Positions 10,646-46,548 of a stretch of 64,000 nt of DNA are shown here, one piece after another. The notes below the pieces were generated by a model. It did not search any database, was not told where the DNA came from, and saw only the letters and a program-made list of their open reading frames with translations. The stretch spans positions 124,001 through 188,000 of the forward strand of contig NAVB01000053.1 in the NCBI GenBank assembly GCA_002179805.1, in the 5' to 3' direction. This DNA comes from Acanthamoeba lenticulata. Its lineage: Eukaryota; Discosea; Longamoebia; Acanthamoebidae. Made by a program: the position numbers and the translations under genes. Numbering within the stretch: the first letter of the stretch is position 1; the number at the start of each line of letters is the position of its first letter.

Positions 10646-13600
10646 TTACGAGGGCAAACCGCACAGCTTACCACAGCCGCGACTTGAATTGGCGGCGATC
10701 ACGAAAAAGGCCATCATGAGCGCAGCCATCAGCAGCGTCGAGTAGAGAAGGATGGGTCCAAAACTGCCGCGACCGCTGCGCGTGCTGTCAACGAAGTCGG
10801 TGCCGCGACACTGCCGCACCTGGCGCGAGAGGTCGCACAACTGGCGGATGTCGCTCGCGAGCTTCTTCACTTCGTCCCCTTCCTCCTTGCGCTGCGCGGC
10901 TTGATGTCGTACCATTTGCTCATGGACCTCCAGTTGACGCACGCGCTGCTGCCACTCGTCCTCTCGTGGCTGAAACTCATCATCGTGCTTCTCCTTGTCG
11001 TAAGCTGTGGCGTCGGCGAGGGCGCGTCTCAGCTCGGCAATGGTGTCCTGCAGCTCATCCACTTGTTCGACGTCGCGCTTCCGCTCCTGTCGCTGCTTCT
11101 CGTGCAGGTCGTGAAGGACGCGCTCGTGCTCCGCCGCCAGTTCGCGCTCGCGCTGTTCGGCCTGCTCTTGGCACGCCCGCAGCGACTCCTCGATCTGCTC
11201 GCCCACCTTGCGCTGCAGCTCGGCCATTTTCTCGCCCTCGTCAGCCTGCTCGCCCTCGAGCTGCTTGACCCGTTCAGTCTCGTGCGCCAGCTGCTCCTTC
11301 AGCTGAGCCACCTCACGCTCGAGCTCCTCCCGCGCCTTTGTCGCCGCCTCCTCGACGGCAGCAGCCGCGCTCTTGGTCCGCTCCTCGGCTTGCTCGGCAC
11401 GCAGATGGGCCAGTTGCTGCTCGGCGCGCTGCTGCCCGTCCAACGTTGCCTGCAGCTTCTGATCTGCGTCGTCGGCTCTGTGCTGGAGGGCCTCGACTTG
11501 GCTCCGGAGCTCGTAGTTGGCTGCGGCAAGCTGCTTCTGCCGCTCTTGGGCTTCATCATCATCATCGTCATCCTTTCCCTCGCGTCCCTTGTTCTCCAAT
11601 GTGTCGAGCTGGCGCTGGAGATCGGCCTTCTCCTCCTCGAGGCGCTTGACACGGTTCTCGTGGTCCTGCTTGAGCTGCTGGGCGTGCTCTTCACGGGCCT
11701 TGCGCTCAGCGGCCAGCGCCTCGCGCACGGACTCAAGCTCGCGCTGAGCCTCTTGGCGCGCCTTTTGCTCGGCGGCAAGTGCCTCAGAGGTGGCGGTACG
11801 TTCGCGCTCGTGCTCGAGCTGCTCTTGGCGTTGAGTCTCGGCCCGCTGCTCCAGCCGAGCCTTGTCGTCGGCCCATTGGTCCAGGGCCGCGCGTTGCTCG
11901 GTCTCGAGCTGCTCAATGCGCGCGCGCAATGCGGCCTCCTTGTCGTCTCGCGTGCCAGCCTGCTCCAGTTGGCGGACCAGCTCGTCCCGTGCACGTTCGG
12001 CCGCTTGGCGCGCCTCCTTCTCGGCCTTGAGCTCCTCGGCCTGCGCTCGTGCCGCCTTCTCGGCCTCGTCGCTCTTCTCCTTGAGTTGCGTCCCGAGCCG
12101 AGCTTGTTCTTCAGCCCACTCGGCCTCTAGTCGCCCAATGTGCGCACGCAGCCTGCCCTCGGTCTCCTTGCCGGTCTGCTCAAGAGTTGCCAGTCGCTGG
12201 ACCAGCTCGTCTCGCGCGCGCTCGACCGCCTGGCGCGCCTCCTGCTCGGCCTGCAGGCCTGCAGCCTGGGCTCGCGCCGCCTCGAGCGCCTCTTGTGCCG
12301 TCTTTCGCTCGCGTTCGACCTCCTCGCGCTGCTTCTCGAGCTCGGCCTTTTCATCCGCCCACTGGGCTTGCTCGGCCTTGAGCCGCTCAAGCTGCGCGCG
12401 CACCTCTGCCCCGACCTCGTCCTTGCTGGCCTGCTCGGGCACGAGCGACTCAAGCCGCTGAACCAGCTCGTCTCGCGCACGTTCAGCCTCTAGACGCGCT
12501 TTCTGCTCGGCCTCGAGGCTCTCACTGGCTTGAGCTCGCGCGGCATCACGCTCACGCTCGGCCTCTTCCTTCTGCTTCTCCAGCTCCTCAACGCGCGCAC
12601 GCACCAGCTCTGTCTCGGCTTCCGCCTTGGCTTGCTGCTCGCGCTGGAGCGTCTCCAGTGTCTGGGCCAGCTCGTCTCGCACGCGCTCGGCCTCTTGGCG
12701 CGCCTCGCGTTCGGTCTTGAGGTCTGCAGCTTCTTCAGCTTGCGCCTCCTCTTGTTGTTCGCCCTCCTCGGCATGCACCTCGAGCTGCTTTTCCAGCTGG
12801 GCCTCATCGCTCTTCTCCTTGAGTTGCGCCTCGAGCTGGGCCTTTTCTGCTGCCCACTGGGCTTGCGCCGCCTCGAGCTCCCCGATGCGCGCTATCTGGG
12901 ACTCTGTTGCGGCTTCGACCTCCTCCATGCTGGCTTTCTTACGCTCGAACGCTTCCAGCCGCTGGGCCAGCTCAGCTTGATCGCGTTCAGCCTGAAGCTT
13001 ATCGGCACGAGCTTCAGCCGCCGTTTTCTCGGCTTCCTCGCACGCCTCTTGCGCCGCCTGAAGCGCGCGCTCGACCATGTCGGTCTTCTTGAGTTGCTCC
13101 TCGAGCCTCGTCTTGTCGTCCGTCCACTTGGCCTGCTCGGCCTCGAGCTGCTCGATGCGCAGCTTCGCCTCGGCCTCCTTGTCGGCCTGCTCGCGCTCGA
13201 GCCTCTCCACCTGCTGGGCCAGAGCTGCCCGTGCGGCTTCCAGATCGCTCGCTCGCTGGGCCTCCTCCTGGCGCCTTTTCTGCTCGACGGCCAGCTCCTC
13301 GCCCAGAACCTCGCACGCACGCTTGGCCTCTTCGGCCGCGTCCTGCTCGCGCTCGGCGTGGGCCTTGAGCCGCGCCTCGAGCTGGTGCTTCTCCTCTGCC
13401 CACTGGGCCTGCGCCGCCTCGCGCTGCTCGACGGACGCCTGCACCTCAGCGGCATTGGCCTCCTTGCCGGCTTGTTCCCGCTCTTGCAACTCGTGGACGA
13501 GCTGCTCCAGCTTGGCCTTGCCGGCCTCGACCTCGGTCAAGCGCTGGACCACCTCGTCGCGAGCCTTGCGCTCGGCAGTCAGTTCCTCCTGCACAAACAG

Positions 13601-13960
13601 CTTGTGTGCGAGCTCGGCGTCGGCTCGTGCCGCCTTTTCGGCCTCGAGCGCCTCTCGTGCGCGTTGGGCCTCGTCGGTCTGCTGCTCGAGGCGTTGGCGC
13701 AGCTCGTCTGCCTCGGCCTCGGCGCTTGCCTGCGCGTCGGCCTTGGCTGTTTCGAGTTGCTCGATTTGGGCGCGTAGCTCGGCCTCGGTCTCTGCGCGGG
13801 CCTGGGCGATGTCAGCCTTCTCGCGCTCGAGTGCCTGCACTCGCTGCTCCAGCTCCGATTTCTCGGTCTGCGCCGCTTCCTTGGCCGCCTGGGCCTCATC
13901 CCGCTCCGTCTCCAGGTCGTGCAGCCTGGCCTCGATGGCGTCATTGTCGTTGTCCTGAGT
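10646..13960 (-). repeat. Segmental duplication, tail block of copy A (partner 28880-32375, inverted)
   Basis: The coiled-coil and anchor part of copy A is nearly the same as copy C. Shared stretches include LAAERKAREEHAQQLKQD, RQLDTLENKGREGK, LRACQEQAEQRERELAAEH and KKLASDIRQLCDLSRQV. Indels are mostly in charged repeats. The partner lies on the opposite strand. Confidence 0.85.
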
Positions 13961-16900
13961 CGACGGCTGCTGCTGCTGCTCCGCAATCGCCTTGAGGCCC
14001 TCCACCTCGGCGATTCGCTGCTCCAGCGACTGCGCACCGCTTGAGTGAAAGCGAAAACGCTAAGACAAAGGTACAGGAAGGCGTACCTCGCCGAGCTGGG
14101 CCTCGCGCCTTCGGGCCTGCTCCTGGACCTCTTCGAGCTCGCGCCGGTGCTCTTCTTTGGCTCGCGCCAGCCCATCGGCCAACTCCTCACGCACGCGACG
14201 CACCTCGGCCGCCTCCCGTTCCTGTGCCTCAGCCCGCTCCTTCTCACGCTCGGCTGTCGCCCTCAGGATCTGCTCTTCGCGCTCGCGTTCTCGCTTGTCG
14301 CTCGCCGCGAGCTGCTCCTCGATGGCCTCCTTGGCCTGCCGCAGCTCCTCCACTTCGGCGTCGCGCTTTTGCTCGTGCTCGCGCAGTCGCTCCTCGAGAA
14401 GTTCCTGCTTCTCCTTGAGCGCGTCTTCCTTCTCCTTCTTGAACATCTCCTCGACCTGCTCCTTCCATCTCCGTGCCTCTTCCAGGTTATCGTTTCGTTC
14501 TTTCTCCTTCGCGCTTCGTTCTTCTTGCAGGGCAGCAGCCAGTCTTTCGCATTCGCGCTCCAGCGTCGCACGCCTTTCATCAATCTCTGCTGCCTCGCTT
14601 CGTTGCTCTTCTTCCTTAATCTGTCGCGCCACACCGTTCTGCTGTTGCTGCTCGAGCTTCTCGCGGAGGGACTCAAGCTGGCTCTGCTGCTCGGCCACCT
14701 GCCGCCTCAGCCGCGCCACCTCGTCCCGCTTCTCGGCCTCTTCCTGCGCTTGTCGCCGCTGGGCCTCGTCGCGCTGCTCGAGCTCCTCCACCACGGCGTG
14801 CAGGCGCCGGCTGGTGTCGGCCAGGCTCGGGCGCTCGCCGGGCCGCGCACGGCAGCACTGCTTGGCCAGCTCCACCAGCGCAGGCGGACCTGATCCAATA
14901 GTAATGGTGATGATGATGATGCCCGCGCGTGGTAACGATGACGACGAGGATGATGACGTCAGCCCAGCGCATGCTGACTTGGGGGGAGGGGGCGATGATT
15001 GGTGGTGGGGAGGGCGTACAGTCGGCAGGGATGACGATGGTCGGCTCCGAAGCTGGTGCCGCGCTGGGCTCGTTCTCCTCCGTCGGAGGGGAGACCTCGA
15101 TGACGGCAGCGAACTCGGCGGTCTCCTTGCGGGACGAAAAGGCGTCGAAGAAGAGCGACACGTACAGCTGGATGGCGCGCTCATCCGGATCGCCGCCCAG
15201 CAGGTCATTGGGTTCTATCAGGCGCGGCACACCGAGGTGTGTCTCGGCCAGCTCAAACACCAGCGGCAGCAGCTCCTCAGGCGGCTGTCGTTATGATCGT
15301 GAGCACATCACGAACAGCAATTGGCCAATAAAAATGCATGGAGGTCACACGAACCTTGTCCTTTACGGCCGCGAGATCGAGAAGTGTTGGGTCGAAGCGT
15401 GAAATGAGAGCCGCAAACGTTTGGCCGTCCCGGAATCCGTACTGTTGTTGTGGTGGGACCACCTCAAAGCCATCAGCACAGGAGGACGAGATCCAGGCCC
15501 GCTTTTGCGCGCCGACCAACGAATGGGCAGAGAAGTAGAAAGGGACGTGCCTTGAAGTCAGAGGGGACGACGCCCAAGACCTCAGTCTGCTCGCGCACCC
15601 ACCGCATGAGTCCCTCCTCCATCGATCCTCCACCTGCGGCCTCCGCTCCGCCCGGTGAGCATGTGCCACCACGGAAAAGAATTTGCGCACGGCGCGAAGA
15701 GGGGGGGGGAGGACCTTCAAGGGAGGCCAGGCGACGCATCTGGAGACCCTTGAAGAGGCTCCACACGAGGCCCAGGATGAGCTTGAGGTACCCGTTGTAG
15801 ATGTCCTCCGACCCGATCCCGACCAGCTTGATGTGCATGTCCTTTTGGATGAAGGCCAGCCCGATGCTCAGGTTCTCCAGCATCGTGATCTTGCTGTTGG
15901 GCTTTGCCGTCCATCGCCGCATCTTTTCGTGTTTGTGTCATTGCGTGTCAGGAAATGCACAAGCGCAATGGAAAAGCCGCTGGGGGGGGGTTACCTTGGT
16001 GGAGTTGACGATCTCGAGGAAGTGGTTGAGCAGGGTGCCGTCCTTGAGGTCATCCTGCAGGTTGTCGATCTTGAGCTCTCGTCGGCTCAGGTATCCGTTG
16101 AGCCACGCCGTGAACGCCTGACCCCGCCGCAAACGTGCGTCCACCGCAAACACGCCAAGAGCACCATGAGATCACGTTCCCTGCGTAGGCTCAAATGTGT
16201 GCAGTCGCGGTACCTTGATCTGGACCTGTTCCCAGTTGGACTCCTTGAGGGCGGCCTCCTTCTTCCTCTCTCTCAGCTCGTCTGACGAGAACAGCCCGCC
16301 GCGCCGCGCGTATGACCCCGATGACGACAGGTCGAGACCCGACGATGAGCGCGGGGACAAGTGTCCACCGCTGCCCCTGGGGGAGGTCGTGGAGGGCGTG
16401 GAGGGTGTGGCCACGCTCGAGGATGATGAACGCAACGCGTCCAGGCTTCCGCCGTTGCTGTTCCCGATGGACCGCGTGCGGGCGTGCCCGCGGCCCGGCG
16501 AAGGCACCGAAAGGCGGACGCCCGATGAGGATGAACCCAAATCGATCGACGGGATGGCTTGTGCTGAGGGAAAGGCCACGAGAGAGTCCGTCCCCGCACG
16601 GCAGCGCACAGGCGGCTTGCGGGTGATCAGCTCTGCGCATGTCAACAGAGTCATCCCATCCGCAAGAAGAAGAAGAAGAAGGACAGTGTAAGCTCGAGCG
16701 CGCAAAATGGCAAGACTGGGTGGCATTGTGCACCCACGAGAAGCAGGCCCAAGTCGGCGGTGAGTTGGCTGCTGGGATCCTCTCCGGCAGCGTCGCTTGT
16801 CGTCGTCGAGCATCGGAGGCCGACCAGCTGCATTCGCTGTTGTTGTTGTTGTTTGTCCTTCTTGTGCTTGTCGACCAGCACATGATGGGCGTCGACCACT

Positions 16901-17551
16901 GGCACCACCTTGTTCTTCTTGTCCGCGCGCTCATCATGCACCAGGAGTGTGGCCAAACTGGCCACGTCCTCGGCCACCTGAGCCCGTTCCTTCCATGACA
17001 TCTCGCTGGCCGCCATGCGCAGCTCCATCGACATGAGCCAAGCGCTCCGATCAGAGTCAAAGTGGACTTTAGGCGAGGGGGGCTTACCTAGTGGCATCTT
17101 GAAGCAGCTCTCGCAGCGGCACTTGGTGGCCCTCGGAGGAGCACTCGGCCACGGCCAACACCGCTTTCTTCGTGTCCTTTCCATCATCTCCATCGCCGCC
17201 ATTTGCGTCTTGCGTTACGAGAAAGCCGACAATGGAAGCCAGACGCTCGTCGCATCCCGTCACCGCCCTTGCGTTTTTGTTGTGAGAGTGTATGTGTTGA
17301 GCACGCATAGACAGTGAAAGAGAGGGAGAGGGGTGGAAGTACTGAAGGTGTGCAAGGAGGTCAGTGTCGTGACTTGCAGCACCGGTGTCAGACACGAAAG
17401 CGGGCCGGCCTCTGAAGCCTGCTCTCCGCACCTCTCTCCCCTTCCTCTCGGTTGCATCCAACTCCGAGCCGGCAGAAAAGGTGACGTCGTCCTGGGCAAG
17501 CCACACAGGCGCAGCGGGCACAAGGCCTCCTGCCGGAGCCGTGCTCTCCAT
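10646..17551 (-). CDS. Copy A: pseudokinase interrupted by tandem CH domains, giant coiled coil, C-terminal membrane anchor
   Basis: Start ATG 17551 (MESTAPAGGLVPAAPVWLAQ). The first exons read as a protein kinase fold: DERLASIVGFL, PLRELLQD, SWKERAQVAEDVASLATLL, HHVLVDKHKK and ADLGLLLVELITRKPP match kinase subdomains IV-IX. The HRD loop reads VPVVDAHH and DFG is absent, so catalysis is unlikely. A Ser-rich linker leads into CH1 (about 16119-15715; FTAWLNGYLSRRELKIDNL, LKDGTLLNHFLEIV) and CH2 (about 15640-15120; FRDGQTFAALISRFDPTLL, PDERAIQLYVSLFFDAF). At about 14890-14785 comes LVELAKQCCRARPGERPSL, the kinase subdomain XI that was missing. A Glu/Arg/Ala-rich coiled coil of about 1,300 residues follows. 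One transmembrane segment (ILLYSTLLMAALMMAFFVI, about 10690-10760) and a short tail ending GLPS close the protein. It probably links actin to a membrane. The head is about 95% alike in copy D and the tail about 90% in copy C. Confidence 0.8.
15350..17551 (-). repeat. Segmental duplication, head block of copy A (partner 32690-34830, inverted)
   Basis: Exons and introns of the pseudokinase and the CH1/CH2 region are conserved between copies A and D at nucleotide level. The similarity includes intron positions and much intron sequence, for example the intron before the first CH1 exon ending gcggcggggtcag. Confidence 0.88.
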
Positions 17552-17705: not shown

Positions 17706-18890
17706 CTAGAACTGCTTCGCGTCCAGCTGCTTCTTGGATTCGGTGTTGATAGCAGTGCCAACAATGGTCACAGGCACGTAGCAGCTGTTCATTACAGCTT
17801 GGCTCGACGAACCCATAATCGTCCTATTGCCGGACCCCCCCCCTCACGTTAGTTTCCGCCTTGGGTTTCGCCAGGCGGCAGAAGAAGGTGCATACCTGCG
17901 CATGCCGGACACGTTCTCCCTACGGCCGATCACCACCGACGTCGCTCCCTTCTTGTCGGCAAGCTGGACACACACACGAGTACGCCTCCTTCAGCATTTT
18001 TCACTCTCGGCGAGACTGGGGCAAGGGAGAGTGGACGTACCCTGCAAACTTCGTCACCAAAGCCAGAGGTGGAGGTATAGGAGAAGTGCTTGAACTTGCA
18101 GTCACGCCCCGCTCGCTTGCACAGGCTCTCGTAGTGATCCTCGATCTCGAGGAGGTCGGGCTTGTCGCTGTCCTTGATGCCACGGCCCATCCACGAGTGG
18201 ACGCCGTGCACCAGCAGCAACGTGTGGTCCTTGGGCAAGTTGCGCGCCGCATAGAGCATCGCTGCAAGCCAGAGAGATCGCAAGTTGTCAATAAGCACGT
18301 CAAACACTGGAGACGAAAGGAGGACACATGTCGAACGTACCTCGGTCAGCGCCAGCAGAGCCGTCAATGCAAATGATATCAGACTTGCCGCTGATCTTGT
18401 CCTTGATGTAGCTCTTTCTCTCCTTATAGCTCTCCATGGTCTTCTTGTCGGCCTTTTCCTTGCTGATCGGCCGGCGCCTGACGTCCTCGCGGTTGCCCCG
18501 TCGATCGTCGATGTCGTCCATCAGGTAGGGCCTATCCTCGGGGTCGACAGCCAGGTGCGGGTCCATGGCCTTGCCAATTCTCTTCTCATAGCGCCTGATG
18601 CCCTCGAAGCTGCCCCGTCGGTCATCGTAGTCGTTATCGTAGTCATCCATCAGGTAGGCACGGTCCTCAGGATCGACAGCCAGGTGGGGGTCCAGAGCCT
18701 CACCGATCTTCCTCTCGTAGCCGGCTCGGGACGACGACCTTTTCCTGTAGCTGCTCCGCTTGAAGTCCCTTGGCAAGTCGTCTCCCTCCTCAGTGAGGTC
18801 CATCGTCAAGTAGGGCCTATCCTCGGGGTCGACAGCCAGGCGCGGGTCCAGGGTGTCGCGCATATCTCTCCTCTGCGTCTTGTAGCTCAT
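17706..18890 (-). CDS. Universal stress protein (UspA-like) with three N-terminal repeats
   Basis: The N-terminal 115 residues contain three copies of a motif of the form LDPxLAVDPEDRxYL, about 40 residues apart (LDPRLAVDPEDRPYL, LDPHLAVDPEDRAYL, MDPHLAVDPEDRPYL), each followed by acidic and basic patches. A UspA fold follows: KSDIICIDGSAGADRAMLYA, KDHTLLLVHGVHSWMGRG, LADKKGATSVVIGRRE and the C-terminal nucleotide-binding strand GSSSQAVMNSCYVPVTIVG. The GSSSQ element fits the ATP-phosphate loop of ATP-binding Usps. Three introns, the last at about 17830-17900. Transcribed away from copy B across a 326-bp shared upstream region. The function of the repeats is unknown to me. Confidence 0.82.
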
Positions 18891-19216: not shown

Positions 19217-22200
19217 ATGGCAGGGTCCAGGAACGCGGAGCCAGCGTGGCTGCAGGAAGAGCTGAAGGTCACCTCAACAGGCAGAGAAGAGGTGCGACAC
19301 TCTTCCACTCTCCGCACGCACAGCTGTGGCGCTCACGTACTTCCAATAGATTGTGGGTAAAGGATTCTATGCCGGGTCTCCGGTCGACCTCCGAAGGTGG
19401 CAGCCAACCGAATGCACCCAAGAGAGACTTTCGGAGTGCATTCAAGCCCTCCGGTGCGTCAATTCCTTCGTGCTGCCGCTTTGCTGGCAGACTGCCAACC
19501 ACTATCTATGCAGGGCGGTGGAGCATAGAAACGTCGCGAATGTCCTCGGTGCTCACAAGTCCCAAACCAACAATGAGGTATGGTGGTGCTCTCGTCTTTC
19601 TTGTTCGTTTGCCTATTTACCGCAGTGGACAGGTTTTTGTTGTGATGCAACCGCTGGGTGCTCCGCTACACGACAGCATCCAAGATCACAAGAGGTACAC
19701 ACGACGGCGGTGAATTGGCTTTATCTTGAGTTAAACTCTTTTTGCTTCAGAAAGCTCGACTGGCGACGGCGGCTCAAAATTCTCAAGAAGGTTGGTGGTG
19801 CTGTGGCTTGTCTGCGAGATCAGCACATCAGCTTGTACGCTTCCCAGTGAGTAACGTAGATGGACGCGTGACTGATTGAACATCTGCAGTGAGGTCAATT
19901 CCAAACAGATTTATCTTTCTCCTTCGGGCAAAGTCAACTTTGCAGGTGCGTTGATGTTTCTGCTCCGTTCTTCTTTCTTTGTGCTGATTTGCACTGCAGG
20001 CTTCAAGTACCACATTCGGCAAGACACAAGCGAAGAGGAAGAAGTCCTTCAGCTCGGGGAGCTCATTGTCGGTAAGAAAGGCCTTTTCATCTCGCCCCGT
20101 TTCGTTCACGGCTGACTTCTTTGACTGCCAGAAATGATTACTCGAGATCTGCTTCCTCGTCGCCATGCAGAAAACGGATCGTTGCTTCCCTTTCCTTCAC
20201 ATTCCACTGCTCGTTTGAGTCCTGCTTTGAGGACCAAGGGATCATCAATCCGGCGCTCGTCTGGCTCCCAGATCTCGTCCCGCATGCCACTTGCCAATTT
20301 TCGTTCTCTCTCCACGTCCGCTGTGACCGTCTACTACACTTCAGAGGCAGTACAGATCCCTCCTCCTTCAACATCAGAGCGAAGGAATAGCGCATCAAGA
20401 GAGACAAGATGGGAGCGTATGCAAGTGAAGGTAGGAAATGCTTACTGTCAGTACTGTTTTTACCGCTTTGCTGAATCTCACCAATGCGTAGGCCTTCACT
20501 GCTTGGCTTAACAGTTATCTCAAGAAAAGAAATCTACGTATAAATGATCTTGAAGAAGATCTCAAGGTACCGAACTTGTGCTGTATCACCAACACCAAGT
20601 CACTAAGACGATCCACTTTGGCAGGATGGAACTCTGCTGAATCACTTCCTTGAAATTGTCTCAAAGAAGTCCTTGCCACCCTGGAACACAAAGCCACGAG
20701 TGTATGTCTTCTTTTCAAATGCCATTTCAATGTGATTCTAAGGGATGAAGCAGGAAGGTTCAGATGTTGGAGAATTTACATACTGGGATTAACTTCATCA
20801 ATAATGAATTAAATATCAAGTTGTCTGGAGTAGGGGCAGAAGGTACATTTTGATAAATAAAAACCCCTCCATTCCCGTACTCATATCACCTTGAACAGAC
20901 ATTTATGAAGGCAAGTATAAGTTGATATTGAGCATGATCTGGCATTTACTTCACAACTTACAGCTAAATAACTTGAACAAAGGTATGTGGTTTATTCTTA
21001 CATTTTGCTAAACAATGCTGATTGTGGATCACAGCATCTCGAAGAAGTGGGTCCTTGTCTGAAGGTATACTTGCATGGGTGAGCCGACAATCAGAGGCTT
21101 GGGGCATTGCTCCCACCGACTTTAAGGTACTTGACACTTCCTTTGAGAAGGAAGTGCACTTTACACTTACTGGACATCCCCAGCATTCCTTCCGTGATGG
21201 TACAGCCCTTGCAGCTATGATTCATGCCTATAACCCTGCCTTGATCAACATGGAGGAAGCAAAGAAGATGGTGCACTTCCTCGTTCAGTAGTAAAGCTTT
21301 TGAGATTGCATTCCTCACAAACATGTACAGCCGGCAGATGAATTGTGTGAGTTGGTCTTGACTTTGGCCGAGGAGCACCTCAATGTCCCCAAGGCACGCG
21401 CTGGCATTTCGTTGTTTTTTGTTTTTTTTTTTTTTCTTTAATCACGGTCCTTTAATATCTTTTTTGGCGCCAAAATCCTTGCTGCGTGTTGTGTTGTGTA
21501 GTTGCTCAGCGAGGCGGACCTACAAGAAGCAGACCCCGACGAGCGGGCAATCCAACTCTACGTTTCTCTCTTTGTGCACTCCCACACAATCGCATCGGTA
21601 CTCATCATGCATCAGTTGAGATTAAATCTCATCTGATTTACGGTGAAGACGATTAACCTTTGTGTTACAGGAGGAAGCAGAGGGAGCAACCAAGGGTTAC
21701 ACTTTGCGAATACCGCCCGACTGTACGTCTCTACCGCTTTTTTTCTCCTTTATTTACGAGCTCAAGGTTATCCGCAGGTCCATCACAACTTCTTGAGTTG
21801 GCCAAGCACTGCTGCCGCGCAGAACCGGAAGAGCGCCCATCTCTATCACAAGTTTTACGACAGCTGACGTCTATCGACGCCGAGCTGAAGAAGGTCGCCC
21901 GAGAGCAAGAGCGGGACGAAACATCGCCCAGACCATCGCCTCGCAAGGGAGAAGCGAACGGCAAACACCATACGAACGGGGACAAACACCACCCCAAGGA
22001 CAGCCAGAAGACAAAGAAGAAGAGCAAGATGACATCTTCCGGCGACATGACGGAGCAGCCCGCGGCGATGAAGGAGGCCCTCTCTGATGGCTACTCCCTC
22101 CTCACGGAGGTGAAGAACATGGCAGCTGGCGACGCCTCCGATATGATTGCCAAGTTGACGAAGCAGGTGAACGAGCTGCAAGCCGAAGTCGAGCGGCTCA

Positions 22201-25200
22201 CGAAGCTCGCGAGCGACAGCGAATGGGCCAAGAGCAACTTCGACACTGAAAAGCAGGAGCTGGATTTCGAAATCTCTAATCTCAAGGCCATCATCCAGCG
22301 GCTGCAGAAGGAGAAGGCTGAGCAGTCAACTACCAACCAGCTCCTTGTGGAGCAGACAGACCAACTTAAGCAGGAGGTCGAAGAAAGCGAGTTCAACGCA
22401 CGGAAGCTGCAAAAGCAGATCGACCAGCTGATAAAGGATGCTTCTGACAAAGACGAGGAGCTCGCCAGCATCAAGCGCCGCGCTCAGGAGCCTCCTGGCG
22501 AAGGCAAGCCGGCCAAACTTCAGGACGAGCCCGTGGTGGACCTGCGTGCCGAGGTTGACTGGGTCAAGCAGCAGCTGAAGGAGGTCACCGAGCAGCGTGA
22601 TGATGCCTTGCGACGGTACGACCAAGTCGAGGACCGGTCACGGACGCTCGAGGATCGACTCCGTGAGCTGGAACAGACGGTCGTCGATCGAGACGCGGAG
22701 CTGACCACGCTGAAGAAGACTTGCGAGGCAGGACGAGAGTCTGAGGAGGCGCTTCGCGGCGAGCTGGAGGCGCTACAATCGACCATGCAGGAGCAAGCTC
22801 AGCAGGCTGACGATCTCAAGACCCAGCTCGACCGGCAACGCGAGGCGAACGAGGCGGAAAAACTCCTTCACGAGCAAAGGACGGTTGCGCTGGAGACCCA
22901 GTTGGCCGAGGCCACCGCCGCTCAGTCTGCACTCCGCAGCCAGCTTGAGAAGCAAGAACTCGAGGAAGCCGCCCGGGCCGAGCAACTGGCCGACGCCGAA
23001 CGGAAGTTCCGAGAGGGGACGGTGGAGCAGATCCGTCACCTTCAAGCCGAGGGTGAGAGTGCACAGCAGGAGGTAGCAAGGCTCGAGCAGGAACTGGAGA
23101 CAACAACTCGGCAGTGCCATGACGTGACCGCACAGCTGACCGAGGCGCAGGCGCAGACCGTCGCCAAGGACGACGAGCTCGAGCAGCTCAAGCGTGAGAA
23201 GAGCCAGCTGAAGGAGGACCAGCGGCTTAAGGCGCTCGAGCAGCACGCGCAACTGCAGGCGGCCGAGGCCGAAAAGACCAAGCTGGGCGAACAGCTGGAG
23301 TCACTTCACAGCCAGCTCGCCGCGAAGCTCGCCGAGGAAGTAACGCTGCGGGACAGCCTGCAGGCCCGTATTGACCAACTGGTCGAGAGCGCGGGCGAAG
23401 CCGACCAGAAGGTGTCCGAGTTGACGGGCCAGCTTGATGACAAGTTTCGTGAGCGAGACGAGCTCGAAGCCGAACTCCGCGCGGTCAAGTCCCAGCGGGA
23501 AGGCGAAGTGGCTCGGTTCTCCGAGGAACAAAAAGAGCTTGCCACCGCAAACGACAAACTGGCGCAGCAGCTCGCGGACGAGCAGACCAAGGTGGCCGAA
23601 CTTGTCGGCCAGCTCGAGACGCTGAAGGGTCAGGAGGACGACTTGTTCAAGCAGGTTGAAGACGAGCGCAACAAGATGGCCGAGCTCGCGCGCAAGCTCG
23701 AGGAGGAGCGCAGCAAGGCAGTCACAGCTGAACAGCAGCGAGCACAGCTGGAGGCCGAGCTCAACCAGGCGCAGGCCCAGTGGGACGACGAAAGAGCCCA
23801 GTTGGTCGGAGCACGAGACGGCGCAGCGACCGACGCCGACAAGCGGGCCCAGGAGCTGCAGGCCCGTCTCGACAAAGCGCTCGAGCAGGTCGAGGCAGAG
23901 GCCAGCGCATGCCGGGCCCTGAAGGACTCGCTTGAGGCCAACAGCATGGAGCACGAGAACGTCACCAACGAGCTTCGTCGCCTTCAGGAGGAACGAAACG
24001 AGCTTGCCCAGCGCGTGCAGGCTGAGCTCGACGCGCGAGCCGAGCTCGAAGCCCAACTCAAGGAGCAGGATGCTGTTTTGGAGCGCGATGCGCTGGCGGC
24101 TAAGGACGAGCAGCGTCGCATCCACGCACAGCTCGAGGCGTGCGAGGCTGAGCTGGCCACGGAGAAGTCAGCTGCCCAGACCCTGCGCGATGAAGTGACA
24201 GACCTCAAGCGTAGAACGGAGGAGCAAGATGAGCTCCTCCAGGCCAGAGACGATCGGCTGGAAGCGCTCGCGGCCAAGGAGGCCCAGAGGAAAAAGGAAG
24301 CCGAAGAGCTGCGCCAATTGCTCCAAGACATGGGCCAGGACGAAGCGGCCATCAACAAGAAGTTCGAGGAGACGGAAACGCAACTGGCCGCCGAGAGAGC
24401 CACCGCCACATCTCTGCGCGCCGAGTTGGAGCAGCTCCAGCGCGAGAAGGAGAGCCAGCTTCAAACGCTGCAGGCCGAGGTGGAGGCTCGCAACGAGGAG
24501 CTTGAGACCTTGCGCGGCGACTTGGAGCACGAGAGCAAGAAGCACGAGGCCCAGAAACAACGAATTGCCGAGCTGAGCCAGTTGCTCAAGGGCATGGAGG
24601 AAGACGAAGCGGCCATCAACCAGAAGCTCGAGGAGACCGAAACGCAACTGACCGCCGAGAAAGCCACCGTCACGTCTCTGCGCGCCGAGTTGGACCAGCT
24701 CCAGCGCGAGACTGAAGAGCGCCTGGAAGCCGCCAAAACGCAACTCGAGGAAGCCGAGCAGCGCTTGACGACCCTCACAGCCGAACTGTCCAAGAAGGAC
24801 GCTGAGGTCCGCGAGGCCCACACGCAGCTCAGGCAGGCGGAGGAAGCTCGGATGCGGTTGGCCGAGGCGCTCGAGACGGCCCGCGCAGCAGCGGAGGGCG
24901 AGATCGACGCGCGCGTGGCGCAGCTCGAGAGCGCTGTCGACGCCGCGCGGGAGAGCGAGGCACAACTGCGGGCGCAGGCCGAAGCCGCCCAGCGCGAGGC
25001 TGAGCAGAAGCTGGAGAGCGCCGTGGCGGCCGGTGAGGCCCAGTTGGCCGCCGAGAAGGCCAGCCTCGAGGCCCTCCGCGCCGACGTCGAGCGACTCGAG
25101 CGCGAGAAGGAGGCGCTGGAGAAGGGCAAGCAAGAAGAGCTCCAGGCCTTGATTCAGGAGCTCCACAAGCAGACAGGGCTCAATCAGGCACGCGAAGCCA

Positions 25201-27167
25201 AGGAGGCCATGCGGCAGCGCGAGCTCGAGGAACTGCGTCAACTCCTCAAGGGCATGGGCGAAGACGAAGCGGCCATCAACCAGAGAATGGAGAACGCCGA
25301 GAAGCGCGTGGCGGCCCTCACGGCCGAGCTGGCTGAGAAAGAGGCCCAGGGCGCCCAGCAGCGGCAAGAGCTCGAGCAGCTGCGCCAGAAGCTCGCCGAT
25401 ATGGGGCAGGAGGCGGTCGCCGCCAACCAGAGGCTTGAGGAGGCCGAGCAGCGCGTGGCGGCCCTCACGGCCGACTTGGCTGAGAGGGAGGCCCAGGGCG
25501 CCCAGCAGCTCGAGGAACTGCGCCAGAAGCTCGGCGAAGTGGAGCAGGAAGCGACGGCCGCCAACCAGAGGATCGAGGAGGCCGAGAAGCGTGTGGCGGC
25601 CCTCACGGCCGACTTGGCTGAGAGGGAGGCTCAGGTCCGCGAGGCTCACGCCCGAGTCGAGGCACTCGAGGCGGCTCGTGTGGGCGAGATCGACATGCGC
25701 TTGGCTGAACTCCAGAGCGCTGTCGACGTCGCGCGGGAGCGCGAGGCGCAAATGCGGTCACAGGCCGAGGCTGACCAGCGCGAGGCCGAACAAAGGTTGA
25801 AGAGCGCCGTGGAGGCGGTCGAGACGCAGTTGGCCGCCGAGAGGGCTTCCCTTGAGGCTCTACGAGGCGAAGCTGGGGCGCGTGTGGCCGAGCTCGAGCG
25901 CATCAACAAGGAGCTACAGGCACGGATCCAAGAGCTCGAGGATGAGGCGACTCGCCGCAGCGAGGCTGCACATGCTGAGCTGCAGGCACTCGAGGCCCGA
26001 CAGCAGGCGGCCCTGAGCGAGCTCGAGGAAAGGATGCGAGCCGATTCGGAACGCAAGACCGCCGGCTTGCGCGAAGAATTCGAGCGGGAGTCCGCTGCGC
26101 TGGCGGCCGACGCGTCGGCGCGGGCAGCCGAGCGCGAAGCCGCGCATCAGAGGCAGAGCGCACAGGACCGGGAGGAGATCGAGCGGCTCCGGGCACAAGC
26201 CGAGCTCATGGCGGCCGGCCTTGCCCAGAGCGAAGAGGCTGTACGCGCGTTGGCGAACAAGGACAACGAGCTGCGGGCGCTCGAGGCCAGATACCGTGGC
26301 GAGACCGCCGAGCTGCAGCAGCAGGCGCGCGCGCAGCTCGAGGTTGAGCTCGGTCGCCTGCGAGCCGAGGCCGCCGCCGATTTGGAATCGCGCGTGGCCG
26401 AGCTCCAGAGCGCCCTCACCACCGCACAGGAGCAGCACAGCCGCGACACGGAAGAGCTGAGCCGTCGCGCCGACGAGGCCCTGGCGGCCGCACAGGCCCA
26501 GCTGGCCACGCAAGACGCTGCCCACCGTGAGGAACTGGCGAGCCTGCGGACGCGGGCCGAGAGCGCCGCTCACGCTGCCGAAGAGGCCCAGGCCGCGGTG
26601 GCCACCAAGGACAACGAGCTGCTGGTGCTCGACTCCCGCCATCGGGAGGAGGCCGCCGAGCTGCAGCAGGCCCTTGCACAAGCCGGCGCCGAGTTTGAGC
26701 GCTTCAAGGCCGAGGCCCAGCAGCGCCTTCGCCAGCAGCTCGCCGAGCGCGAGCAAGCCATGGAGGCCGAGCACCGCGAATGGGCGCAGCGACGAGCTTA
26801 TCTCGAGGCCACCATCGAGCGGCTCCAGCGCGCCCTGGACGCCGTGCCGACGCCGGCGCCAAGCGACAACGGCCAGGATGAGGAGGTGCTCGAGCAGCTG
26901 CGACGACGAGTGGAGGAGCTCGAGGCCGAGCTGGCGCGGCAACGACAAGCGGAGGAGGAGAGCGAGGCCAAACGGCTCGCGCTGGACCTGCGTCAGATGC
27001 AGTTCCTGTCGCGCCAGGCACAGCTGCAGCGCGCCGGCCAGGCGAGCACCGACGACAACCGAACCGTCTTGTTCCAGTGGCTGGCGGTGTTGGTGGCCGT
27101 GTTGGCCGTGGCCGTCTTCGCGGGACAGGCACACGACATTGTCCGACCACTGCTGGTGCCCACCTGA
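19217..27167 (+). CDS. Copy B: pseudokinase interrupted by tandem CH domains, giant coiled coil, KASH-like tail anchor
   Basis: Start ATG 19217 (MAGSRNAEPAWLQEELK). Small exons then give IVGKGFYAGS, HRNVANVLGAHKS, VFVVMQPLGAPLHDSIQDHK, LDWRRRLKILKKVGGAVACL and VLQLGELIVEMITRD, which follow kinase subdomains I to IX. The catalytic loop reads SHEVNSKQ in place of HRDLKxxN, and the DFG position reads AGF, so it is a pseudokinase. A Ser-rich linker leads to CH1 (20493-20985; FTAWLNSYLKKRNLRINDL, GTLLNHFLEIV) and CH2 (21034-21600; FRDGTALAAMIHAYNPALI). The kinase C-terminal element LLELAKHCCRAEPEERPSL (about 21785-21850) then resumes. A coiled coil of about 1,700 residues follows, with internal tandem units around LLKGMGEDEAAIN. 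One transmembrane helix (WLAVLVAVLAVAVFAG) and the tail QAHDIVRPLLVPT end the protein. The very end resembles plant KASH termini. The sequence is clearly diverged from A, C and D. Confidence 0.82.
24300..25600 (+). repeat. Internal tandem repeats in the copy B coiled coil
   Basis: Units containing ELRQLLxxMGxDEAAIN and LEEAEQRVAALTADLAERE recur (about 24310, 24580, 25235, 25390, 25510 and 25570). They point to expansion of the rod by tandem duplication. This is protein-level repetition within one long exon. Confidence 0.7.
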
Positions 27168-28459: not shown

Positions 28460-31400
28460 ATGAATAATAAGGCGGCCTTCTTGTCCGAGCTCCAGATGAA
28501 GCTCGGCAAGCCGCAGCGCCGCGAGGCTTCCACCGGTACACCACCCGACGACAACAGCAGACGAGCATTTGGGGAAGGGGGTTTGCTCACACTTGCGGTT
28601 GGCAGCCGAGCCCACCTCGCAGCCCGAGGCCGAGACCGAGGCCCAGCCCGATGGTTCCCCCGACGCTGAGACGCAGTCCGAGCACACAACTTCGCCGCCT
28701 ACAACCACGACCAGCGGCGGGAGGCTCGTGGGACCGAACAAGGCGCGGTCGCAGGGACCCCTGCGGCGACGGCCCTCCACGATGCTGTCGATGCGGGCCG
28801 AAGTGGAGGATCTCAAGCAGCGCCTCGCCCAAGCCACTGCTTCGTCGCAGCAGCGCAAGCAGCAGCCGCAGGGCGGGCACGACAGCGACGAAGACGACAA
28901 CGACAACAACGAAAACGAGAAAGGCGCTGTCGAGGCCAGGCTGCAAGAGCTGCAGACTCAGCTGGTCGAGGCCCAGGCGGCCAAGGAGGCAGCGCAGGCC
29001 GAGAAATCGGAGCTGGCGCAGCGCGTGCTGGCGCTCGAGAAGGCCGCCCAAGCTGAGACCGAGCTACAGGCCCGCATCGCCGCGTTGGAAGCCGAGAAGG
29101 ATGCCTGGGAGCAGGAGAAGGAGCAGGACAAGATCCTCTACCTCGACGAGGCTCAGCGTCAGGCCGAGCGGGCGGCTCGAGATGCCCAAGCCAAGGCCGA
29201 GGAGCTCGAATCCATCCGTACGCAGCTCGACACCGAGCGCAATGCCCGCCAAGAGCAGGCTCAGCTGCTCGAGCGTGAGAAGGCCGATGCGGGGGCTGAG
29301 GACGAGCTGCGTGCCCGAATTGGGCAGCTCGAGGACGAACACCGCCAGGCCCGGGCCCAATGGGAACAAGAACTGGCCGCCCAGCGCACGGCCCACAGCG
29401 AGCTCGAGGCCGAGAAGAGCAAGTTCGACGAACGTTTAGAGTCACTCGAGCGCGAGGCGGCGGACGCGCGGACAAGCGCGGAGGCCGCGGCCGCCGAGCT
29501 GCAGCGCATCCAGCAGCAGGCTGACGAGGCACGAGCGGCGCTCGACGCCGAGAAGGCAGCGCGAGCTGCCGAGGGCAAGGCTCGCGACGAGCAGGCCCAG
29601 CAGCTGCGTGAGCTCGAGGCCGGCAAGGCCGAGCTGGAGCAGCGCGTCGAGGAGTTGCAGAAGCGCGAACCAGCTGCCGAGGCCGGTGCCGAGCTGCAGG
29701 CACGCATTGAGGAGCTCGAGGCCGCGCAGACCCAGTGGGCGGACGAAAAGGCCCAGCTCGAAGCGCAGCTCAAGGCACAGACCGAGCGCGAGCAGGACGC
29801 GGCCGCCACACAGAAGGCGCGCGAAGAGGACCTGGAGGCTGCGCGGGTGGCCCTGGCCCAGCAGGTGGAGAGGCTCGAGCGCGAGCAGGCCGACAAGGAG
29901 GCCGAGGCGAAGCTGCGCATCGAGCAACTCGAGGCCGAGCAGGCCAAATGGGCGGATGACAAGACGAGGCTCGAGGAGCAACTCAAGGAGAAGACCGACG
30001 AGGCCGAGCGCGAGCGTCAGGCGGCGCAACAGGCGCGCCAAGAGGCCGAAGAAGCAGTGCAAACTGCGGCTGAGGCCGATCAGGAGGCGCGCCGAGAGGC
30101 CGAGCGCGTGCGAGACGAGCTGGCCCAGAAATTGGAGGCGCTCCAGCGTGAGCAGGCCGGCACAGAGTCTCAGGTTTCGCGCATTGAGGAGCTCGAGGCG
30201 GCGCAAGCCCAGTGGGCAGCAGAAAAGGCCCAGCTTGAAAAGCAGCTCGAGGCTGAGCGCGAGCGCAAAGGGGAACAACAAGAGGAAGCTGAAGACCTCA
30301 AGACCGAACGCGAGGCGCGCCAAGAGGCCGAGCGCGTGCGAGACGAGCTGGCCCAGAAACTGGAGATGCTCCAGCGCGAGCAGCAGGGCAGCATCGAGGA
30401 GCTGGAGAAGCAGAAGGAAGAGGCCGAGCGTGAGCGTGATGCCGCGCGAGCTCACGCCGAAGACCTCAAGGCCGAGCAGGAGGCGCGTCAAGAGGCTGAA
30501 CGTGCGCGAGACGAGGCCGAGCGGGAGCGAGACGAGTTGGCCCAGCGGCTTGAAGCGCTTGAGCGCGAGGAGACCAGCAAGGAGGGCGAGCGGGCCAACA
30601 AGGAGGAGGCTGAGACAGAGCTGCAAGCGCAGATTGAGCAGCTCAAGGCCGAGCAAGCCCAGTGGGCGGATGAAAAGGCCGAGCTCGAGAAGCAGCGCGA
30701 GGAGGCCGAACGCGAGCGAAAGACGGCACAAGAGGCGCTCGAGGCGGCGCGAGCCCAGTCCTCAGGCCTGCAGGCCGAGCAGGAGGCGCGCCAAGCGGCT
30801 GAACGTTCGCGGGACGAGGCCGAGCGCGCGCGAGATGAGCTGGCTCGGAAGCTCGAGGCGTTCGAGGCCGAACAGGCCGGCACGGAGGCCGAGATGGAGC
30901 TGCGAGCGCGCATCGAGGAGCTCGAAGCTGAGCAGACCCAGTGGGCGAAAGAAAAAGCTCAGCTTGAGGCCGAGAAGGCAGCGGCCGAGCAGCTCAAGCT
31001 CGAGCAAGATGAGCTCGCCCAGCAACTCGAAATGCTCCAGCACGAGAAGGTCAGCGCGCGAGACGAGCAGGAGGCCGCGATTGCCTTGCGTGCGCGCATC
31101 GAGCAGCTCGAAGCTGAGCAGACCCAGTGGGCGGAGGAGAAGGCGCGGCTCGAGGAGGCTCAGCGGGCCGACGATGAAAACGAGGACACTCAACGCCAAG
31201 AGCGTTCTCAACTCGAGCAGGAACGCAACACCGCTGTCGAGGCGTTCGAGGCCGAGCAAAAGGCGCACCAAGAGGCCCAGCGCGAGCTCGAGTCTGTGCG
31301 CGAGACGTTGGCCGCTGAGCGCAAGGCTCGAGAAGAGCACGCCCAACAGCTCAAGCAGGACAACGAGAATCGTGTCAAGTGCCTCGAAGAGGAGAAGGCC

Positions 31401-32375
31401 GATCTCCAGCGCCAGCTCGACACATTGGAGAACAAGGGACGCGAGGGGAAGGGTGACGATGATGAAGCCCAAGAGCGGCAGAAGCAGCTTGCCGCAGCCA
31501 ACGACGAGCTCCGGGGTCAAGTCGAGGCCCTCCAGCACAGAGCCGACGACGCAGATCAGAAGCTGCACGCAGCGTTGGACGGGCAGCAGCGCGCCGAGCA
31601 GCAACTGGCCCATCTGCACGCCGAAGCCGAGGAGCGGACCAAGAGCGCGGCTGCTGCCATCGACGGCGAGGAGGAGGCGACAAAGGCGCGGGAGGAGCTC
31701 GAGCGTGAGGTGGCTCAGGTGAAGGAGCAGCTGGCGCACGAGACTGAACGGGTCAAGCAGCTCGAGGGCGAGCAGGCTGACGAGGGCGAGAAAGTGGCCG
31801 AGCTGCAGCGCAAGGTGGGCGAGCAGATCGAGGAGTCGCTGCGGGCGTGCCAAGAGCAGGCCGAACAGCGCGAGCGCGAGCTGGCGGCCGAGCACGAGCG
31901 CGTCCTTCACGACCTGCACGAGAAGCAGCGACAGGACGCCCAACAGGTTGATGGACTGCAGACCACGATCGAGCAGCTGCGGCGCGCCCTGGCCGACGCC
32001 ATCGGGAAGGCCAAGGTCACCGAGGACGACGAGCAGGCACTGGAGAATGAACGGCTGCAGCAGCGCGTGCGCCAACTGGAGGTCCAGCTGGCGCGCAAGA
32101 CTGAAGAGCTGCGACTACAACAGCCACAGCAGCGGAAGGAGAAGGGAGAAGACGAGGTGAAGAAGCTTGCGAGCGACATCCGCCAGCTGTGCGACCTCTC
32201 GCGCCAGGTTCAGCTGTTCCGCGCCACTGAAGTCGACGGCACGCGCAGCAGGCAAGGCGGCAGTTCCAACGTTGGACCCTTCCTGCTCTGGTCGGCGTTG
32301 CTGGTGGCCGTATTGGCGGTGGCTGTCCTCGTGTTCAACGCCGACTTTGTCAAATCTTGGGGTGTGCCCTCGTGA
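28460..32375 (+). CDS. Copy C: coiled-coil tail-anchored protein with capping-protein-interaction-like motif
   Basis: Exon 1 from ATG 28460 gives MNNKAAFLSELQMKLGKPQR, an amphipathic helix resembling WH2-like starts. A donor at TCCACCG/gtacacc joins in phase to ggttggcag/CCGAGCCC (about 28608). The next segment is acidic and Pro/Thr-rich. GRLVGPNKARSQGPLRRRPS follows (about 28725-28785); its order NK-x-R..G...RR-x-PS resembles the CPI motif of CapZIP/CARMIL-type capping protein regulators. The rest, about 1,170 residues, is a Glu/Ala/Arg coiled coil nearly the same as the copy A rod. It ends with a membrane helix (FLLWSALLVAVLAVAVLVF) and the tail SWGVPS. There is no pseudokinase and no CH domain. 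A membrane-anchored actin-end regulator is inferred. Confidence 0.75.
28880..32375 (+). repeat. Segmental duplication, tail block (partner 10646-13960)
   Basis: Inverted partner of the copy A rod and anchor. Homology begins around AEVEDLKQ / AEVEGLKA and runs to the stop codon; both genes end TGCCCTCGT followed by a purine-type stop. Confidence 0.85.
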
Positions 32376-32689: not shown

Positions 32690-34830
32690 ATGGAGAGCAC
32701 GGCTCCGGTAGGGGGTCTTGTGCCCGCGGTGCCTGTGTGGCTGGCCCAGGACGACGTCACCTTCTCTGCCGGCTCGGAGTTGAGTGCAAGTGAGTCGAGG
32801 GGGAGGATGAGGAGCGGGGTGGTGCGAAGAGCAAGCTTCAGAGGCCGGCCCGCTTTTGTGTCCGACACCGGTGCTGCAAGTCACGACACTGACCTCCTTG
32901 CACACCTCCAGTACTCCCACCTTCTCTATCTCGTTTTGTCCAATGCGTGCGCAACACTCTGTGTTAACAACGACGCAAGGGCGGTGTCGGGTCTCGACGA
33001 GCGTCTGGCTTCCATTGTCGGCTTCCTCATCACGCAAGACGCAAGCGGCGATGATGGAGAGGATACGAAGAAAGCGGTGTTGGCCGTGGCCGAGTGCTCC
33101 TCCGAGAGCCAAGTGCCGCTGCGAGAGCTGCTTCAAGATGCCACCAGGTGACCTCCCCACCACCAACCCACAAAGAAAGCTGTTGTTGTTGCCTTGATCG
33201 GAGCGCTTGGCTCATGTCGATGGAGCTGCGCATGGCGGCCAGCGAGGTGTCATGGAAGGAACGGGCTCAGGTGGCCGAGGACGTGGCCAGTTTGGCCACA
33301 TTCCTGGTGCACGATGAGCGCGCGGACAACAAGAACAAGGTGGTGCCAGTGGTCGACGCCCATCACGTGCTGGTCGACAAGCACAAGAAGGACAAACAAC
33401 AACAACAACAGCGAATGCAGCTGGTCGGCCTCCGATGCTCGACGACAAGCGACGCTGCCGAAGAGGATCCCACCAGCCAACTCACCGCCGACTTGGGCCT
33501 GCTTCTCGTGGGTCGACAACGCCACCCGATCTTGCCCCTTGCGTGTGCACTCGAGCTGACGCTGTTCACTTGTGCATGGCTCTGTTGACGTGTGCAGAGC
33601 TGATCACCCGCCAGCCGCCTGTGCGCTGCCGTGCGGGGACGGACTCTCTCGTGGCCTTTCCCTCAGCACAAGCCATCCCGTCGATCGATTTGGGCTCGGC
33701 TTCGTCGGGCGTCCGCCTCTCGGTGCCTTCGCCGGGCCGCGGGCACGCCCGCACGCGGTCCATCGGGAACAGCAACGGCGGAGGCCTGGACGCGTTGCGC
33801 TCCTCGTCGTCCGGCGTGTCACTGGCCACGTCATCTGGCAGCGGCGTGCACTTGTCCCCCCGCGGCAGCTCATCATCGTCGTCGGGTCTCGACCTGTCGT
33901 CATCGGGGTCATACGCGCGACGCGGCGGGCTGTTCTCGTCAGACGAGCTGAGAGAGAGAAAGAAGGAGGCCGCCCTCAAGGAGTCCAACTGGGAGCAGGT
34001 CCAAGTCAAGGTACCGCGACTGCATTGCCGAGGTTGCCCGGAGTCAAGTGGATTCCACTGACCCATCGTATGTGCGGCGGGGTCAGGCGTTCACGGCGTG
34101 GCTCAACGGATACCTGAGCCGACGAGAGCTCAAGATCGACAACCTGCAGGATGACCTCAAGGACGGCACCCTGCTCAACCACTTCCTCGAGATCGTCAAC
34201 TCCACCAAGGTGCGCTCCATTTCTCGGGCACACGGCAGCTTCTTCTTACACGAACCGAACTCCACACACACGACACAAACACGAAAAGATGCGGCGATGG
34301 ACGGCAAAGCCCAACAGCAAGATCACGATGCTGGAGAACCTGAGCATCGGGCTGGCCTTCATCCAAAAGGACATGCACATCAAGCTGGTCGGGATCGGGT
34401 CGGAGGACATCTACAACGGGTACCTCAAGCTCATCCTGGGCCTCGTGTGGAGCCTCTTCAAGGGTCTCCAGATGCGCCGCCTGGCCTCCCTTGAAGGTCC
34501 TCCCCCCCCTCTTCGTCTTGACTTTTTGGGGTTGACCAGCGCGCGCACTCACCCGAGCCATTGCTGCGCTTGACCGCAGGTGGAGGATCGATGGAGGAGG
34601 GGCTCATGCGGTGGGTGCGCGAGCAGACCGAGGTCTTGGGCGTCGTGCCATCTGACTTCAAGGCACGTCTCTCTACTTGACTGGCCAATGGAGCACTACT
34701 GAGGTCACTCACCTTCTCTAATGTGCACAATAACAACAGTACGGATTTCGGGACGGCCAAACGTTCGCGGCTCTCATTTCACGCTTCGACCCGACTCTCC
34801 TCGATCTCGCGGCCGTCAAGGACAAGGTTC
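32690..34830 (+). repeat. Segmental duplication, head block (partner 15350-17551)
   Basis: Inverted partner of the copy A head. Similarity covers exons and introns and stops inside the intron after the AAVKDK exon, where the glycosidase begins. Confidence 0.87.
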
Positions 34831-40288: not shown

Positions 40289-40361
40289 ACGAGCACGGCC
40301 GTTGTAAAAATACAATAAAAAGAAAAAGAAAAAGAAGGAAATAAATAAACGAAGCAACACG

Positions 40362-41829: not shown

Positions 41830-41924
41830 TGTTGTCCCTCTCGAAGCAGCCACGAATAGAGGACTTGATCATACACACAAGTACCTATTGCGTTTATTTG
41901 GGGCTTGCAATAGTGCGATCCGGC

Positions 41925-46548
<4,624 letters not shown>

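Follow-up and report, generated by a model that had tools for sequence, protein, structure and literature searches.

Nesprins carry a CH1-CH2 pair, and interaptin combines a CH pair with a coiled coil. ILK is a TKL-type pseudokinase. Extra sequence inside a kinase fold is found in the kinase insert of PDGFR and in the CMGC insert. A kinase fold rarely has an entire domain nested in it, and we know of no kinase insert that is a complete actin-binding domain.

Interaptin of Dictyostelium (abpD) is described, in passages of a 2025 review, as a spectrin-superfamily protein that binds actin, resides at the outer nuclear membrane and has a short C-terminus; according to the same passages it seems not to bind Sun1, its role is doubted and Dictyostelium encodes no readily identifiable KASH protein (PMC11816917). 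KASH proteins are defined in an excerpt of PMC4019843 by a single C-terminal transmembrane helix, a short tail of 9-35 aa and a penultimate Pro. Plant KASH proteins, as excerpted from PMC4019843 and PMC13200780, have a short luminal tail with an X-VPT end and need the last four residues for SUN binding. For ILK, excerpts of PMC3014569 and PMC6203859 report that the pseudoactive site binds the CH2 domain of parvin; a Lys replaces the DFG Gly (PMC3014569), as in copy B described below, and WH2 motifs, not the parvin CH domains, are reported to give the IPP complex its grip on actin (PMC6203859).

We analysed a window of 64,000 nucleotides, the whole stretch from position 124001 to 188000 of contig C50 of Acanthamoeba lenticulata, together with the genome it belongs to (48.5 Mb, 1825 contigs). 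In keeping with this origin, the genome encodes a profilin matching PDB 1acf, Acanthamoeba profilin I, at 91% and 85% identity. Paired loci on separate contigs (C50/C507, C90/C556, C493/C494) are read as alleles or haplotypes. The window contains three related copies, A, B and C, of which copy B has the following parts:

19217..27167, + strand: copy B gene, 18 exons and 2310 aa, an in-phase exon chain with a single terminal stop
19350..20160, + strand: pseudokinase N-part, N-lobe to helix F (residues 26-186), with PF07714 on residues 46-128, a LIMK1 match and the profile alignment
20161..20409, + strand: Ser/Pro-rich linker, helix F/G to CH1 (residues 187-269), placed by sequence and without a Pfam match
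20410..21597, + strand: inserted CH1-CH2, a predicted actin-binding domain (residues 270-497), with PDB matches and PF00307 found twice in the head by Pfam at 3e-36
21671..21866, + strand: pseudokinase C-part, end of helix G, helices H-I and the subdomain XI Arg in EERPSL (residues 498-544), matching PF07714 positions 214-258 (1.5e-6 alone)
21912..27010, + strand: long coiled-coil-like stalk in the last exon, heptad-rich as judged by eye
27066..27122, + strand: lone C-terminal transmembrane helix (residues 2278-2296), top 19-residue hydropathy 2.66
27123..27164, + strand: short KASH-like tail GQAHDIVRPLLVPT, ending LLVPT (X-VPT motif), with an identical 14-residue tail in the C507 allele

The reading frame is kept across all 18 exons, and 16 of the 17 introns are GT-AG, the remaining one (after 21393) being GC-AG. 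The preliminary description had ended the gene at 21880, but its last exon continues to 27167 and encodes the coiled coil, the transmembrane helix and the short tail. Across the 2310 aa, hydropathy windows above 1.6 occur at the C-terminal helix only. The allele (B') on contig C507 is intact, 98.5% identical in exons 1-17 and 94.7% in introns, with coding indels of 72, 3 and 3 bases, the 72-base one lying in frame in the coiled coil. Contig C507 carries the second haplotype of the A-B-C cluster, with exons less diverged than introns. Divergent from copy B, a universal stress protein-like gene lies at 17750-18890 on the - strand (PF00582, 1.5e-10), and its N-terminal part contains, by eye, repeated LDPHLAVDPEDRPYLMDD-type units.

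The other members of the cluster are laid out as follows:

10646..17551, - strand: copy A gene, 11 exons and 2023 aa, with the same nested plan and a tail ending CGLPS
16609..17551, - strand: copy A pseudokinase N-part, strongly diverged, with introns common to B and D
15132..16234, - strand: copy A CH1-CH2, PF00307 at 1.7e-32 in a 10-exon model
14801..15049, - strand: copy A pseudokinase C-part, PF07714 at 0.0085 alone in the 10-exon model, below the cut-off; profile match 95.7%
10649..10753, - strand: copy A transmembrane helix and tail ...GCGKLCGLPS, hydropathy 2.43
28460..32375, + strand: headless relative of 1281 aa, with a coiled coil, a transmembrane helix and the tail ADFVKSWGVPS
32690..34826, + strand: copy C, 5' part only, 8 exons encoding a kinase N-part, a linker, CH1 and part of CH2

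The 10-exon model from which the Pfam scores of copy A come kept a 75-base intron as coding. This segment was rejected as coding sequence, the C507 allele giving 7 stops, and it differs by 2 bases in length in that allele; with the 11-exon model the allele, which covers 6 of the 11 exons, stays open. Copy C ends within CH2 and is followed by a T-rich stretch and a glycosyl hydrolase 65-like frame at 34827-36133 (+ strand, PF03632 at 5e-9), so that its break is either a real rearrangement or an assembly join. Contig C1012 begins with the 3' part of an A/C-like gene. The coiled coil of the headless relative is 60.5% identical to that of copy A over 1163 columns, and its N-terminal 149 residues have no Pfam match at E 0.01. 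Farther along the + strand, MORN repeats and a VPS9 domain at about 37110-40290 (PF02493 at 3.3e-13, PF02204 at 1.2e-10) probably form one Rab GEF gene, and a peptidase C13 gene at about 40400-42500 (PF01650, 1.8e-22) is presumably the GPI-anchor transamidase catalytic subunit.

A fourth copy, D, was located via a tail match in the genome search, on contigs C90 and C556. It has 8 exons in phase and 1398 residues, and each of the 8, searched individually by BLAST, has a counterpart of the same length on C556 with 96-100% identity. A kinase-like domain (PF07714, 2.9e-10) is followed by a coiled coil, a hydrophobic helix and the tail RQSEFVRAWWVPT. Pfam reported no CH family in the copy D head, which in that search began at an earlier start codon than the final gene model.

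The order of parts in A and B fits the nesprin/interaptin plan of an N-terminal CH pair, a long stalk and a C-terminal anchor, but the CH pair is nested in a pseudokinase, and the protein searches described below found no ortholog that would tie the copies to these families. Like A, B and D, nesprins have a long stalk, a C-terminal helix and a short tail with a penultimate Pro, luminal in nesprins and predicted to be so in the amoeba copies, but nesprins end in PPPX where the amoeba copies end in [VL]P[ST]; unlike nesprins, copy B has its CH pair within a pseudokinase and no Pfam spectrin repeat in the head, the part searched. Interaptin is amoebozoan, as are copies A and B, and binds actin, as they are predicted to do, and the review passages on it mention no kinase-like part and give it no clear KASH end, whereas B and D end in VPT. 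The plant KASH proteins WIP and SINE share with B and D the X-VPT end and the short tail, predicted to be luminal in the amoeba, but in the excerpts they are described with no mention of CH domains or a pseudokinase, unlike copy B.

The peptides quoted in the preliminary description lie in the + strand exons of 19217-21880 in the order it gave. Its central proposal was a CH pair nested in the helix G region of a kinase-like C-lobe, with the helix H/I segment following both CH domains. We find that the C-part indeed follows the CH pair and matches PF07714 in order. Pfam matches PK_Tyr_Ser-Thr to two stretches of the 557 aa head of copy B, at 3.7e-11 overall. Alone, the N-part gives 1.4e-4 and falls just below the family cut-off; joined to the C-part without the CH pair, it scores 5.2e-12. 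In a phmmer search of the PDB, both kinase parts align in order to LIMK1, and the best 60 of the 357 distinct sequences at E<=0.1 are kinases.

For a profile comparison, the kinase-like parts of A, B, B', C (N-part only) and D, with the CH pair cut out, were aligned by hhalign to 30 kinases from the same genome. The whole family scored 98.4% over 205 columns (E 7.5e-15), B with its allele 97.6% and D alone 96.8%. Taken separately, the family N-part scored 92.4% and the family C-part 96.7%, and those of B 65.8% (weak when alone) and 95.7%. The N-part of A and C alone reached just 3.4%, and A and C joined reached 95.7%, aligned over the last 87 columns only. Controls stayed low: 0.3% for the reversed alignment, 0.1-0.3% for 10 of 10 column shuffles and 0.4% for the CH pair. 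A four-row CH-removed profile (A, B, B' and D) matched 471 distinct PDB sequences at E<=1e-3, the best 60 of them all kinases. For its top two matches, the Nod-factor receptor 5 kinase domain (7e-13) and CSK, a single unbroken alignment spans the N-lobe through helix I, while for several others (LIMK, FAK) the alignment is confined to the C-end. The two lobes are thus recovered in order in B and D, and in copy A alone via the C-part only, and the finding of no kinase match for either part, on which the proposal could have failed, did not materialize. The closest sequence matches, the kinase domains of LIMK1/LIMK2, CSK and NFR5, are uninterrupted, unlike copy B; LIMK and CSK are active kinases.

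In the genome at large, at least 155 PK_Tyr_Ser-Thr matches were reported with 146 of 1358 first-look candidates scored; the matches listed are above the cut-off and many lie in long open frames. They represent a large TKL-like kinase expansion, doubled in part by haplotypes.

The inserted CH pair of copy B has 5nl7 as its best PDB match (7.9e-39), and residues 1-223 of 226 align to alpha-actinins at about 1e-38. Both the type-1 and the type-2 domain are present at full length and in tandem, and the pair is a predicted actin-binding domain of the alpha-actinin type. It is positioned between the end of helix F and the helix G-H loop of the kinase fold.

Copy D is the strongest sequence evidence for the nested reading. 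Its 7 head introns match, in order and phase, 7 of the 8 kinase-part introns of copy B. Four of them fall in one column in D and B: before the hinge strand (phase 0), before the DFG site (phase 1), in helix F (V|E..ITR, phase 1) and in the G-H loop (P.D|CP, phase 1). The intron before helix E (phase 2) lies one codon before K-L-[DS]-W in both genes, split by a gap forced by copy A, and those at the Gly-loop (phase 0) and helix C (phase 2) are off by 1 and 3 columns in length-variable stretches. Copy A shares four introns, with helix C in the column of D, helix E in that of B and the last two in the columns of both. These last two flank the CH insert in A and B and occupy a single column in A, B and D. 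Sequence flanking the insert was also compared with D by shuffling. The pre-CH sequence of A was equalled in 1 of 1000 shuffles and its post-CH sequence, which includes helices H-I, in 0 of 1000, and the aligned flanks leave about 8 residues as the insertion site. The pre-insert flank of B aligns significantly to A (equalled in 1 of 1000 shuffles) but not to D (229 of 1000). Together, the intron and flank comparisons place the insert at helix G.

The nested architecture is real, with good support at the sequence level from the collinear parts, the profile positions and copy D. We infer that the uninterrupted form is the older one, because it is an ordinary kinase fold; alternatively, copy D may have lost the CH insert that A and B retain. 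The preliminary description knew of no family with this architecture, a claim that survived limited searches of literature and proteins. Among open-licence papers, the titles and abstract beginnings describe no CH pair inside a kinase and no Acanthamoeba KASH protein. A search for orthologs outside this genome, over up to near 8000 candidates of lengths other than about 975-1126 aa, matched 40 proteins (5, 21 and 14); all have CH domains but 0 of 40 have a kinase domain (PF00069 or PF07714), so that no ortholog with the nested plan is among them, and 0 of 40 are named Acanthamoeba.

The host domain has lost the residues expected of an enzyme. Aligned to kinases, copy B has SHE at HRD, as first described, and Gln at the catalytic Asn; DFG had been read as AGF, but the alignment gives GFK (A-D-F-G to A-G-F-K). 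The exons before the CH pair had been taken for kinase subdomains I-IX, of which a kinase-like N-lobe to helix F stands, and about 21 activation-segment columns, APE included, are missing. Copies A and D have Gly in the DFG-Asp column and a short span from there to helix F, and copy D has VAVH at the expected VAIK. A pseudokinase is recognized by loss of the HRD Asp and the DFG Asp together with either the VAIK Lys or the catalytic Asn, and such losses occur here. An active TKL kinase is ruled out by the lost HRD, DFG and APE/activation-segment motifs. With their catalytic motifs lost, A, B and D are all expected to be without kinase activity, in agreement with the earlier suggestion of a scaffold rather than an enzyme.

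At the other end of the proteins, near the C-terminus, A, B and D contain a single strongly hydrophobic stretch each (hydropathy 2.43-2.70, with the last 40 residues scored for D). The best 19-mer is followed by 16 residues in A, 14 in B and 13 in D, ending in LPS, VPT and VPT, respectively, so that all three have the single helix, short tail and penultimate Pro of KASH proteins. The tail ends of B (HDIVRPLLVPT), D (SEFVRAWWVPT) and the headless gene (ADFVKSWGVPS) are alike, and a genome search with the D and B tails found only D or B, the headless gene and their alleles, the matches from B or D to the headless gene being weak (E 0.01-0.1). The genome also encodes a SUN domain (PF07738), with 4 exon matches in total and best scores of 47.3 bits on C494 and 46.7 on C493. 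Short motifs and shared ancestry make the KASH reading suggestive, not proof, and we infer that the tail would bind SUN at the nuclear envelope.

We therefore propose, with a probability of roughly 60%, that A and B (and the broken copy C) are nesprin/interaptin-like, tail-anchored actin linkers whose CH pair is nested in a TKL-type pseudokinase and which are bound by SUN at the nuclear envelope. Their most likely role would be that of a noncatalytic nuclear-envelope actin linker, the location and SUN binding being those suggested by the tail. The pseudokinase would fold as one body without phosphorylating and could serve as a rigid holder, with the actin-binding domain held out on the substrate-facing side. 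The coiled coil would form a stalk that gives oligomers and reach. The outer nuclear membrane/ER would hold the C-terminal helix, and the short [VL]P[ST] tail would reach into the lumen, bound there by the amoeba SUN protein. Such a linker would work as nesprins do, with actin outside, SUN inside and force passing between actin and the nucleus, and the dead kinase would act as a scaffold and possibly as a regulatory clamp.

Golgins have a coiled coil and a C-terminal anchor. This plan counts for an alternative in which the nested head is real but the anchor is not KASH, the protein being a golgin-like or general ER/Golgi tail-anchored tether at another membrane. The doubtful KASH function of interaptin in the review passages (PMC11816917) points the same way, as does the tail of copy A, which ends in LPS rather than VPT. 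Against these stand the alike ends of B, D and the headless gene, weak as the matches are, and the SUN domain encoded in the genome, and we regard a tether of this kind as possible but rather unlikely.

How the kinase-like parts have been maintained bears on whether they do any work. Pfam found no kinase in the copy A N-part alone, which is assigned by shared introns and the family profile. Between A and C, dN/dS is 0.36 in the kinase N-part (20 synonymous and 24 nonsynonymous changes), 0.18 in the linker and 0 in the CH part, where 0 of 11 changes are nonsynonymous. Between B and B', it is 0.10 in the CH part and 0.06 in the linker, and the kinase parts show 1 synonymous and 3 nonsynonymous changes, too few to judge selection. 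On C507, which covers 6 of 11 A exons and 5 of 8 C exons, the alleles of these two copies contain no stop, and wherever an exon differs in length it does so by 3 bases. The kinase N-part is thus less constrained than the CH part, yet kept open. One could suppose that the kinase-like parts are inert relics of old exon-shuffling and that the CH domains and the coiled coil do all the work, as the hardly recognizable N-part of copy A and the contrast of 0.36 with 0 in the CH part would suggest. We consider this quite improbable: the N-part value is still below 1 over 44 changes, exonic length differences between alleles are multiples of 3 or, in D, absent, ELAKxCCRAxxxERPSL is the most conserved stretch across A, B and D, and D retains a kinase-like domain without any CH pair.

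A gene-model or assembly artefact that wrongly joined the exons of neighbouring kinase and CH genes has a negligible probability: copy C, also within the window, indeed passes into an unrelated gene, but the order is the same in A, B and B' and, as far as the contigs reach, in A' and C', phases fit at every join, and exon mis-joining is ruled out by these alleles and by copy D, whose contiguous kinase parts and shared plan of 7 introns argue strongly against it and against the 5' exons belonging to another gene, an outcome the preliminary description had named as decisive.

A more specific version of the linker can be imagined from ILK. The CH pair might fold back on the pseudoactive face of its own pseudokinase, from which much of the activation segment that would otherwise cover that face is absent, and latch actin binding. 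Tension on the coiled coil and on the tail held by SUN would open the latch, making a force-gated actin clutch at the amoeba nuclear envelope and an independently arisen, one-chain counterpart of ILK-parvin. We hold this to be improbable. ILK and parvin are two proteins in animals, whereas copy B is a single chain with the CH pair inserted at helix G; ILK has N-terminal ankyrin repeats and the copy B head has no Pfam ankyrin match, so that copy B does not qualify as an ILK. Neither the best 60 of the 357 nor the best 60 of the 471 PDB matches include ILK, and the CH pair of copy B is closest to alpha-actinin, unlike that of ILK-parvin. Given these differences and the WH2-based actin grip, the ILK precedent is an analogy only. 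If the latch were true, the CH-less copy D would represent a clutchless version of this linker.

Taken together, a sister gene with an uninterrupted fold and the same intron plan makes the insertion open to dating, modelling and direct testing. With their single anchors and short proline-containing tails, A, B and D are concrete KASH candidates in Amoebozoa, and the plant-like VPT ends of B and D would bear on the age of the SUN-binding code.
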